From contig NC_081828.1 of the NCBI RefSeq assembly GCF_030867095.1, positions 220,627,978-220,691,977 on the forward strand: DNA of 64,000 nucleotides, written 5' to 3'. This document shows, piece by piece, positions 3,813 through 48,785 of the stretch (its first letter is position 1; each line of letters begins with the position of its first letter). This DNA is from Alligator mississippiensis (taxonomy: Eukaryota > Chordata > Crocodylia > Alligatoridae). The notes under the pieces are model-generated. The model worked only from the letters and a program-made list of their open reading frames with translations. It was not told the DNA's origin and did no database searches. The position numbers and the translations under genes were made by a program.

Positions 3813-4494
3813 TCATAGATTCATAGATTGTCAGGGGCTGGAAGGGACCTTGAAGATCATCGGGTCCAGCCCCCCTGCTCTAGGCAGGAAGACAACAGGG
3901 GTCAAGTGACCTGAGCAAGGTGACTGTCCAGTCTCCTCTTGAAAACCTCCAGGGTAGGTGACTGCACCACCTCTGCAGGGAGTTTATTCCACAGTCTGGA
4001 CACCCTGACTGCGAAGGAGTTTTTCCTGGTATTAAGCCTGAAGTGGCCTTCCAGGAGTTTATATCCATTGGTCCTGGTCTTCCCCAGGAGTGCCCTAGTG
4101 CAGTGCTTCTCAAAGTGGTGGTCCACGAACCAGTGGCAGTCCGTGAGCCACCGGTCACCAGTCCGCAGCGAGTTGCCAGGAAAGAAAGAAATATATTTTC
4201 AGAAGCATAACATTGATATGTCATAGTGCCACAGTTCGTACGTTCCAGCACTCCAGGTGACGTCACGTCGTGCAAGGTGAGGAAAGAGAAAGAAACAGCC
4301 GATCACGCATTTGTGTAACGCTGTTGCACGCAGTTGCTGCCACCAGCTGAACTGGGCACCGGCCCCTGGCCCGCTGGAAAAAAAATTGCCGTTCCACCAC
4401 ATCAGATAGTTTGAGAAGCACTGCCCTAGTGAACAGTTGTTCACTGAGCTCCTGATGCACTGCTCGGATATAGTGGTAAGCTGCAAGGAAAGTT
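3813..4494 (-). mobile_element. CR1 3' fragment inserted in another CR1
   Basis: It starts with the reversed CR1 terminus (CATAGATTCATAGATTG) and continues into the last part of the reverse transcriptase on the minus strand (NSFAVRVSRLWNKLPAEVV). It is itself split by the hAT element at 4101-4423. Order of events inferred: forward CR1, then this CR1, then the hAT. Confidence 0.8.
4101..4423. mobile_element. hAT-type non-autonomous DNA transposon (323 bp)
   Basis: The ends are inverted (CAGTGCTTCTCAAA at the left, TTTGAGAAGCACTG at the right) and are flanked by a perfect 8-bp target duplication, CCCTAGTG, at 4093-4100 and 4424-4431. An 8-bp duplication with a CAGNGNTTCTCAA terminus is the known signature of the hAT superfamily. 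No transposase is encoded. Confidence 0.88.
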
Positions 4495-10848: not shown

Positions 10849-41436
<30,588 letters not shown>

Positions 41437-45899: not shown

Positions 45900-46558
45900 A
45901 TTTTTGCTCTGCTCTGCTCTGCTGGCAGCAGGGTGGGAGGGCGACTGGAGGCAGGGGCTGCGTTGGGGGAAGGTGCCTGGCATCTGCTGCAGAACCAGGG
46001 AGGCACCTGCCCTCCAGCGGGGAAGGGCCCCTTTGAGCACAGCGGGGCGCTCTGGCCGGACTGGGCTCGGCTGGGACCAGCGCTGGTGCCCGTGCAGGCC
46101 CCACGGCCCCAGGAGACGCTGCCTGGAGGAAGTGGGGAGCAGGGGGGGCTGCGGCCCGGCGGCCTGGCGCAGCACTGGAGACCCAGCCCAGGGCGGGGGC
46201 GACACGGGCATCCTCCCCTTCTCTCCTGCCCGCACCGGGACCGCTCGCTCCGCCGACACCGAGGCGAGTCGGAGCCACCTCGCTGTGCGCGCTCGAGCGC
46301 CCCTCTGGCAGGGCTGGGGCAGGGTGGCAGCAGCAAGGCTGGAGGCCGCAGGTCTGGAGCGAGGGCCCGTGGGGCCGGGCGGTGTGGGTCGAGGGCAGGG
46401 ACAGCAGCGGGAGCGAGCAATGCCAGCATGGCCGGGGGAGGGGGGAGACGAGGGCTGCGGGTCAGGAGTGCGGGGCGCCAGCAGGGAGGGGACGCGGGGC
46501 AGCAGGGGAGGGCACCGCCAGGGACACGGGCTGCGGGGCGGGAGCGCGGGGCACCCAC

Positions 46559-46807
46559 GGGTCTGTGGGGGCTGGAGGTGGGGAGCGCGGGCACCGACGG
46601 GGAGAGGACCAGGGTGCGGGTCGGGAGTGCGGGGCACTGACGGGTCTGTGGGGGATGGAGGTCGGGAGTGCGGGCACCGACGGGGAGAGGACCAGGGTGC
46701 GGGTCGGGAGTGCGGGGCACTGACGGGTCTGTGGGGGATGGAGGTCGGGAGTGCGGGCACCGACGGGTCGGGGGGGGGGCTGGAGATCGGGAGTGCGGGG
46801 CACCGGC
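46559..46807. repeat. 83-bp GC-rich minisatellite
   Basis: GGGTCTGTGGGGG starts units at 46559, 46642 and 46725, giving an exact 83-bp period. The first two full units are nearly identical and diverged units extend on both sides (about 46430-46960). A shorter motif, GGGAGTGCGGGCACCGAC, recurs inside each unit. Confidence 0.9.
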
Positions 46808-47248
46808 AGGGCCAGGGCGCGGGTCGGGGGTGCGGGGCACCGATGAGGCCAGGGTGGAGGTGGGGAGTGCGGGCACCGACGGGGCTGGGGGGGGTGGTGG
46901 AGGCGGGGAGCGAAGGGCACCGACGGGGAGAGGACGAGGGCGCGGGCGCGGGTCGGGAGTGCGGTGTGGGCCGGCAGGGCTCCTCTTTTCCGGCGCTGTA
47001 GCCGGTAAGCCCGGGCGAAGCGAGGGGCAATGGCGGGACCCCGCAGAGGCGCTCTGGCCGAGCAGACGGGGCGGGCGATGGCGGGCGGGCGCGGCCTCCT
47101 TCCCCCTCCCCGAGCGGACTCGAGGGCGCGCAGAGACGAGCCGCCGTTGCCGCGAGGACGCCGCACACCCGGGCAGGAAGAGGTGCCGCCCGCCCGCCCG
47201 CCGAGCCCTGGGCCGGCCTCGAGACCCGGGCAGGGCCCCGGGGGCACG

Positions 47249-47302
47249 ATGGACGCCGGCGGCTCGCGGAGCCCGCCATTGAACGCGAGTTGCCCGGGAA
47301 AC
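47249..47302 (+). CDS. Possible first coding exon of an unrecognised gene
   Basis: An ATG in the CpG island opens MDAGGSRSPPLNASCPGN and meets a near-consensus donor (AAC|GTAAGG) at 47303. I see no downstream exon that continues it and do not recognise the peptide. It may instead be a non-coding first exon or chance. The X-box-like site overlaps the donor. Confidence 0.22.
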
Positions 47303-47340
47303 GTAAGGCCGTGACGCTGGATGTCGTGTCCCAAGGCCGT

Positions 47341-47670
47341 CTGGGTGATGTGGTCTTCCACTTCTGTACTTCCGGGAGGCCATTTTGGATTATAGGGTGT
47401 GCTGGGAGATGTATTCTTCCGCCTCTACGCCCGGGCAGCCATTTTGGATCTTAGAGCGCGCTGGAAGATGTAGTCTTCCGCCTCGGAACTTCCGGTCGGC
47501 CATTTTAGGATGTAGGGCGCGCTGGGAAATGTAGTCTTCTGCCTGTGTACTTCCGATCGGCCATCTTGGACTATGGCGTGTGTGGGGAGATGTAGTTTTC
47601 CGTTTCTCCACTTCCGAGCATCCATTTTGGGTCCTGGGGCGCGCTGGGAGATGTAGTGTCCCAAGCGGGG
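47341..47670. repeat. 60-61-bp tandem array of promoter-like modules (5.4 copies)
   Basis: Units start at 47341, 47402, 47461, 47522, 47583 and 47644 (the last partial). Each contains CTGGGAGATGTAGTCTTCC, the reverse of the ZNF143/SBS-type ACTACATCTCCCAG. Each full unit then has ACTTCCGG or a close variant (ETS core) and GGCCATTTTGGA or GGCCATCTTGGA (YY1-like). GTGTCCCAA flanks both ends (about 47326 and 47657). The motif classes are known from housekeeping promoters; their function here is inferred. Confidence 0.88.
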
Positions 47671-48785
47671 GGTGACGCCCCTGGGTTTGCTCGAGATGCG
47701 TCGGTGGCTGCACGCCAGCGTTTGGGTTGCTCTGCCAGCCACAGCATCGCACCGGGGGCTCGTGTTCATCTTGTGGTCAGTCAAGACCCGCATGTCTTGG
47801 TCGTGGCGCTAGCGAGCGCAGCACCGCCAGGCGTGTAAGTGCGCTGTCGGCTCGTCCTGCCAGGGTGCAGCGCCCTCAACTTCTCCGCGTCGAAGACCAT
47901 CAGGCTTTGGTCCGCCCAGCTCGCGAGCGTGTCCAGGTCGGCCCGTAACCCCAGCCTGTCTTCCGGTGTGACCGCTTCCCCGCAGCGCGTGCCAGCCCGC
48001 GTCTCGCACCCACATCCACATAACCAGTACAGACACTGAGGAGTACTGGCCCAAGTACTGAGCCCTGGGGGTGCCACTGGTCACCTCATGCCACACTGAT
48101 TTGTTCCCGTCTTTGGGTCCGACCCCGGAGCCAGTCCCCCAGCCGTGGTCAGGCTGCAGCTCCCCAGCTTAACTATGAGGACGTCGTGGGAGACGAAGTC
48201 AAAGGCTTTCTTGACATCCAGATACGTGACATCAACCTAGTCTCCTTTGTCCAGGCAATGCGTCATGGACGGAGACGAGGTTAGTCAGGCAAGACCTACC
48301 AGTAACAAAGCCGTGTTGACTGGCATTCAGATGGTTGCCTTTCATTAGCCTGTTGCTGTTGGATCCCTCGATGATTTTCCCCACAATCGTTCTAGGGATG
48401 GACATCAGACTGACTGGCCTGTAATTCCCTGGATCCTCCTTCCTTCCTTCCTTTCTTGACGATTGGGACCGCAGCTCTTTCCCAGTCTCTGGAGCCTCAC
48501 CCGAGCACCACGAATTTTCATACATCTTTGCTATAGGGCGTGCTATGATGTGTGCCAGCCCCTTCGAGAGTCTTGGGTGCGTTCCTTCTGGGCCCACGGG
48601 CTTATGGATGGCTAGCCTCTTGAGGCGTTCCCTCACCAGAGCTACGGCAAGTGTGGGCCCGTCTGCTCCCTGGGTGTCCTGTGTCCACTCTGACACTCTG
48701 ACCCCCGCGGGCGGGTGAAAGACTGATGCAAAATAGTCATTTAGGAGATTGGCTTTTTCTTGGGCGTCAGATGTCAGTTGCCCCA
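47671..48785 (-). mobile_element. CR1 LINE, reverse, lacking its 3' end
   Basis: The minus strand carries RT pieces: MRVLTDHKMNTSPRCDAV, RADLDTLASWADQSLMVFD, a YRPVSLMSIPRTIVGKII block, HKPVGPEGTHPRLSKGL and MGQLTSDAQEKANLLNDYF. The usual CATAGATTCATAG terminus is missing because the 47341-47670 array borders it. GC-rich coding suggests a distinct subfamily or CpG-island-linked composition. Confidence 0.85.

Follow-up and report, generated by a model that had tools for sequence, protein, structure and literature searches.

The window, i.e. the whole stretch of 64,000 nucleotides that was analysed (C5:220627978-220691977, in an assembly of 2.35 Gb), contains on its + strand the exons of an upstream SMARCD gene (SWIB domain; the best PDB matches are SMARCD proteins), which we take from its sequence to be SMARCD3. 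The downstream exons, also on the + strand, find their best NCBIfam match in the MiaB methylthiotransferase family, with scores under the curated cut-offs as expected of fragments, and presumably belong to CDK5RAP1; a GC-rich stretch (53.0-54.5 kb) lies with them. Between the two sets of exons a CpG island extends over ~46.1-47.9 kb, with a tandem array on its right side (Table 1). The CpG-island feature was present in 200-bp segments starting at 46.6-47.6 kb (GC 0.55-0.79, CpG observed/expected 0.77-1.05). The latter ratio was 0.95-1.05 for starts at 46.9-47.4 kb and 0.20-0.26 at 45.6-46.0 kb, and values of 0.5-0.7 persisted to the right of the island. ATGGCGG occurs in the island core on the + strand at 47078 and on the - strand at 47279, both copies being conserved in a related island on contig C4, described below.

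The Rfam scan (gathering thresholds) and the tRNA scan of the window gave no match. A coding reading of the island was rejected: the three island ORFs tested matched nothing in Pfam (E up to 0.01), and the gaps in the alignment with C4 are not multiples of three. On the + strand, CTCCTCTTTTCCGG and the CCGGTAAGC that follows it (46982-47008) resemble a TCT-type start and a splice donor. In C4 the first of these is largely conserved and the second, a donor-like GTAAGC, is not.

Table 1. The tandem array and its immediate surroundings, in window coordinates (unit starts were read off the sequence).
Feature	Positions	Strand	Remarks
G-rich tandem repeats, periods 37, 42, 83, 116, 117, 166	46440..46946	+	island's far side from the array; left of the stretch shared with C4
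CpG-island core adjoining the array	46944..47340		kept in the C4 relative
Left copy of the 16-bp direct repeat bracketing the array	47320..47335	+	15/16 identity with 47650-47665
Unit 1	47341..47401	+	61 bp; ZNF143/THAP11 box 2 mismatches, ETS exact, YY1 exact; 90% identity with C4 unit 1
Unit 2	47402..47460	+	59 bp; ZNF143/THAP11 box 1 mismatch, no ETS box, YY1 exact
Unit 3	47461..47521	+	61 bp; ZNF143/THAP11 box 1 mismatch, ETS exact, YY1 one change
Unit 4	47522..47582	+	61 bp; ZNF143/THAP11 box exact, ETS = ACTTCCGA, YY1 exact
Unit 5	47583..47643	+	61 bp; ZNF143/THAP11 box 2 mismatches, ETS = ACTTCCGA, weak YY1 = TCCATTTTGG
Partial unit 6	47644..47657	+	exact ZNF143/THAP11 box, nothing else
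Right copy of the 16-bp direct repeat bracketing the array	47650..47665	+	overlaps box 6

TRF reported a single array at 47341-47657, with a period of 61, 5.2 copies and a 74% match. The sequence-only reading had described five full units of 60-61 bp and a partial sixth, each full unit with three boxes in a fixed order. The array and the box order were confirmed; one unit measures 59 bp, the array ends at 47657, and unit 2 has lost one of its three boxes. On the + strand, a typical unit consists of a CTGGGAGATGTAGT-like box, ~13 bp, an ACTTCCGG-like box, 2-3 bp, a GGCCATTTTGG-like box and another ~13 bp. The first box had been called ZNF143/SBS-like, and it does occur in all six units. In most of them ACTACA is present and the GCATGC that ends a full ZNF143 site is missing.

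Read on the minus strand, this ZNF143/THAP11 box is ACTACANNTCCCAG, and its membership feature was present (two of six boxes exact, four of six with at most one mismatch). With up to two mismatches, ACTACANNTCCCAG matched 19 times in the window against 6.6 expected, a count that none of 100 shuffles reached. The YY1 motif GCCATNTTG had 11 matches in the window (3.2 expected). The ETS motif ACTTCCGG taken alone showed no excess over chance, with two matches in the window and at least two in 34 of 100 shuffles. The strict consensus is satisfied by 2/6 ZNF143/THAP11, 2/5 ETS and 3/5 YY1 boxes, that is by 7/16 boxes overall. An ordered composite, defined as the ZNF143/THAP11 box (up to two mismatches), then ACTTCC, then CCATNTT, occurred four times in the window, every time inside the array. 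It was not found in 200 first-order random sequences of 64 kb with the composition of the window, nor in 200 with that of the island.

Genome-wide, pairs of YY1 or ETS sites at array-like distances are not rare and say little by themselves; what is rare is the combination. The fused ETS-YY1 motif ACTTCCGGNNNGCCATNTTG has six sites in 2.35 Gb and none in the reversed control: three lie in a further array on contig C1, one in the C4 array and one in the window, the sixth being AT-rich and without the other boxes. Tandem pairs of the ETS motif with a gap of 46-58 numbered 49 against 36 in the control; the C1 array accounts for 12 of the 49, and the arrays of the window and of C4 contribute none. 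Tandem pairs of TGGGANNTGTAGT (gap 42-56) numbered 15 against 0, one being the C4 array and the remaining 14 different sequences, and those of GCCATNTTG (gap 45-60) 274 against 1, with a dispersed 59-bp family supplying many of them. The exact 14-mer CTGGGAGATGTAGT was considered as a dispersed repeat and set aside; it has 89 sites in the genome against 3 in the reversed control, an enrichment that is partly repeat-borne. Among the 28 of 89 sites inspected (28 loci, two of them repeating others), such an array was seen by eye at the C4 pair (254877598, 254877658) and at the site in the window, and nowhere else. The sites at L015, L024 and L025 belong to one common dispersed repeat, and the two at L011 form a similar inverted pair.

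Other tandem clusters were seen in the same searches. Those at C8:759310-759449 and C10:416301-416374 are TGGGANNTGTAGT-like, with a spacing of ~31 bp by eye, and lie within 1 Mb of a contig end. At C14:561711-561843, 0.56 Mb from the contig end, ACTTCCGG recurs every ~62 bp in a tandem array unlike that of the window.

Searching the genome with the island and array as query recovered two further places, on C4 and C1; the search scores only the best first-look candidates, and more distant relatives may be missed. In the C4 paralogue (C4:254877215-254877706), three units with the box order of the window accompany the island core; the identity is 72-80%. Apart from the pair of first units (90%), C5 and C4 units are 61-80% identical, and identities inside the arrays are 66-77% on C5 and 67-75% on C4. 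Based on this comparison between and within arrays, the array seems to predate the C4/C5 duplication. CpG observed/expected reaches 1.02 on C4 and is 0.53 over part of its array (c4 20300-20499).

The C1 relative consists of two sub-arrays that together hold at least 25 boxes, with ~67% identity over 260 bp and the same box order; the sequence flanking it had no match to the window. Its box includes the terminal GCATGC of a full ZNF143 site, and ACTCCA or similar replaces ACTACA. With C1-type units as query, C1 was the sole place recovered among the best first-look candidates scored. The spacer consensus of C1 agrees with that of the window in 13 of 28 columns (7.7 expected, p 0.024), with 8/13 in the first spacer (p 0.028) and 4/13 in the second (p 0.39). 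This gives a slight hint that the C1 array may be related by descent rather than convergence.

The right ends of C4, C5 and C1 all bear TTAGGG arrays. The distance to the telomere-bearing contig end is 197 kb on C4, 244 kb for the window on C5 and 3.0 Mb on C1. The C5 and C4 copies have the same orientation and the C1 array is reversed. The neighbours differ among the loci: near the C4 array lies a gene that we assume to be MYO10-like, one fragment of which gave a weak PTB-domain match of the IRS-1 type (22.5 bits with a cut-off of 22), and near the C1 array there is an ORF with 15 C2H2 zinc-finger patterns.

The surroundings of the C4 relative (L009) contain repeats of their own. A 17-copy 60-bp tandem repeat rich in CTAACCCTAACC and an AGGGTC run (L009:7165-8166, L009:4909-4942) are telomere-like interstitial repeats, 0.19-0.2 Mb off the contig end. 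Directly left of the C4 island, L009:3950-4130 belongs to a dispersed, often tandem repeat of ~172-190 bp; the L009 query gave 218 matches from the 40 of 402 candidates scored, and nearly all among the matches listed fell on 3950-4130.

We have then compared divergence in boxes and spacers. Among the five window units, identity was 0.826 in boxes and 0.614 in spacers (permutation p 0.0012), in what is a guided test on few units since the boxes were named beforehand, after being seen. None of the 60 circular shifts of the labels reached the observed difference. Adding the three C4 units gave 0.819 against 0.617 (p 0.00025), and the first units of C5 and C4 differ in 1 of 33 box columns and 5 of 28 spacer columns. 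Thus, the claim that binding cores were kept over spacers was upheld for the window and C4 units, whereas the difference was nearly absent (0.799 vs. 0.776) in the ten C1 units tested, out of at least 25. The C1 expansion looks more recent.

These comparisons bear on the serious rival explanation, namely that the array is an old minisatellite that no longer has a function. A unit derived from a promoter would once have multiplied in a chromosome-distal region that is GC-rich and unstable, and would now be drifting, the motifs being remnants of the founding promoter. The window units are only 66-77% alike and therefore have seen no recent homogenisation, 9 of the 16 boxes are off consensus, further tandem repeats share the island, each of the three arrays is 0.2-3.0 Mb away from a contig end with telomeric repeats, and box constraint is absent among the C1 units tested. 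The lower divergence of boxes than of spacers in the C5 and C4 units and the CpG content that the window island has kept speak against such drift, and we regard this explanation as rather unlikely.

At active human CpG-island promoters, HCFC1 reportedly coincides with ZNF143, THAP11, YY1 and GABP occupancy. The array has the same site set as these HCFC1-type promoters (M4 motif ACTAYRNNNCCCR and partners), likewise on a CpG island, and the feature of nearby ETS/GABP and YY1 sites was present (ETS exact in 2/5 units and ACTTCCGA in 2 more; YY1 exact in 3/5). It differs from them in having no gene assigned and in stringing six boxes together in a heterotypic tandem array of 60-bp units; human M4 genes mostly have one M4 copy, and DFFA has two (PMC5006282, excerpt). 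A proposal made in passages of PMC7154149 is that ACTACA directs THAP11 and HCF-1 to the sites that ZNF143 occupies. The monomers of the mouse L1 Tf 5'UTR are, as in the array, tandem units each with a YY1 site; in the portion of PMC11602158 concerned, each monomer needs this site and the monomers work synergistically as a promoter.

Because of the HCFC1-promoter factors, the role of ACTACA and the synergy of L1 Tf monomers, we have interpreted the array as a promoter cassette in multimerised form. It would be the proximal part of an HCFC1-type CpG-island promoter, amplified and kept as a multi-copy recruiting platform, which we place slightly on the probable side. The sequence-only reading had proposed a multi-copy promoter or insulator, and its promoter half agrees with the three motifs of one promoter class, with the CpGs kept on the island and with two further genomic arrays of the cassette. 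Against a promoter, the boxes off the strict consensus and the lost ETS box of unit 2 fit slow decay too. Fixed spacing in repeats need not mean binding either: an excerpt of PMC11687419 attributes a reported ZNF143-CTCF spacing to an artefact of unbound SINE/B2 repeats.

The likeness to L1 Tf raises the further possibility that the units are promoter monomers of a transposable element. The genome does have a dispersed family of 59-bp monomers, each with a YY1-like GCCATATTG, and a 19-bp stretch at the YY1 site of this family matches unit 1 at 15 positions (16 of 1000 monomer shuffles score as high); CR1-like sequence, in reverse orientation, also abuts the array on the right (by eye). However, the family had no window match at E up to 1, its best matches in the C4 and C1 stretches having E of 0.30 and 0.92, the array family was found at three places only among the best first-look candidates scored, and no element body was seen attached to the array. 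The array differs from L1 Tf in that no LINE body was seen and in having two further boxes per unit and three loci found, and an origin as element monomers is highly improbable. As for the 59-bp family itself, its monomers stand in tandem, two to ~5 in a row by match spacing, at C1:71024847-71024914, C3:264049442-264049626 and many other places (99 matches, 84-100% identical, from 40 scored of 1392 first-look candidates). By analogy with mouse L1 Tf, it looks like the promoter monomers of a young mobile element.

Under the promoter-cassette reading, full units would each offer predicted landing sites for THAP11/ZNF143 and YY1 and, in most, for an ETS factor such as GABP. One three-box cassette would have been amplified head to tail long ago, and the island and array would later have been duplicated between chromosome ends. 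The cassette may now be retained as a recruiting platform that keeps the island unmethylated in the germ line; the retained CpGs suggest such a state, although CpG is scarcer over part of the C4 array.

The platform would start an unannotated, probably non-coding transcript, and the array probably drives it leftwards. YY1 sites have an orientation habit, which was used for the direction of transcription. Since the minus strand carries the three motifs in sense orientation as well as the ATGGCGG conserved at 47279, we infer that the likeliest start is at ~47290-47320. The stretch near 46982-47008, with its TCT-like start and its donor-like GTAAGC, would instead favour the rightward direction. 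Bidirectional activity has been reported for ZNF143 (PMC7154149, in the passages concerned).

The position of the arrays could also suggest a TERRA-type subtelomeric promoter, an analogue of the human 61-29-37-bp repeat islands, which are likewise chromosome-distal CpG islands with ~61-bp and 37-bp tandem repeats (PMC6600276, excerpt). The window island bears 60-bp and, among others, 37-bp tandem repeats, and the C5 and C4 copies share their orientation near telomere-bearing ends. However, the telomere is 197-244 kb off with genes around, so that neither copy adjoins telomeric repeats, the C1 array is reversed at 3.0 Mb, and the preferred transcription direction is away from the telomere. Moreover, no NRF1-like consensus (GCGCANGCGC or TGCGCA) was found in 46000-47700 or c4 19500-20700. 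With its other motifs the array is set apart from the human islands by description, and this explanation, which is not supported, is hardly likely at all. Crocodilian 60-bp satellite DNAs of group 2 share the unit length; they are described as built of 20-bp subunits in the part of PMC10900743 concerned, and the array is again set apart by description.

Clustered YY1 sites in tandem on a CpG island also recall the Peg3-DMR, whose tandem YY1 array lies at a promoter CpG island (PMC4361396, excerpt), and would fit an insulator or imprinting-type element. YY1 is exact in just 3/5 boxes here, this explanation leaves the ETS and ZNF143 boxes of the units unexplained, and imprinting is not supported. 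Nothing favoured the insulator half of the sequence-only reading: no CTCF-like core was found in the island with a crude consensus rather than a matrix, and ZNF143 itself reportedly needs neither looping nor CTCF to act (PMC11687419, excerpt). An insulator or imprinting-type element is accordingly not supported and very unlikely.

Returning to the multimerised promoter cassette, no description of a tandem ZNF143-ETS-YY1 array was found among the literature matches listed (titles and abstract starts). A broader proposal, which we consider decidedly doubtful, is that such natural multimerised promoters form a class: a complete three-factor housekeeping cassette would spread, in the manner of a minisatellite, from one chromosome-distal CpG island to another and be selectively kept at three loci with unrelated neighbours, driving non-coding transcription near chromosome ends. 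If inactive, the array would be an old promoter fossil. If active, it would be a known promoter cassette multimerised in nature, with damage graded across its units, and would reveal how promoter strength depends on the number of THAP11/ZNF143, ETS and YY1 site copies and on their order and spacing. It would also mean that such cassettes are able to multiply as minisatellites and to move between chromosome ends.
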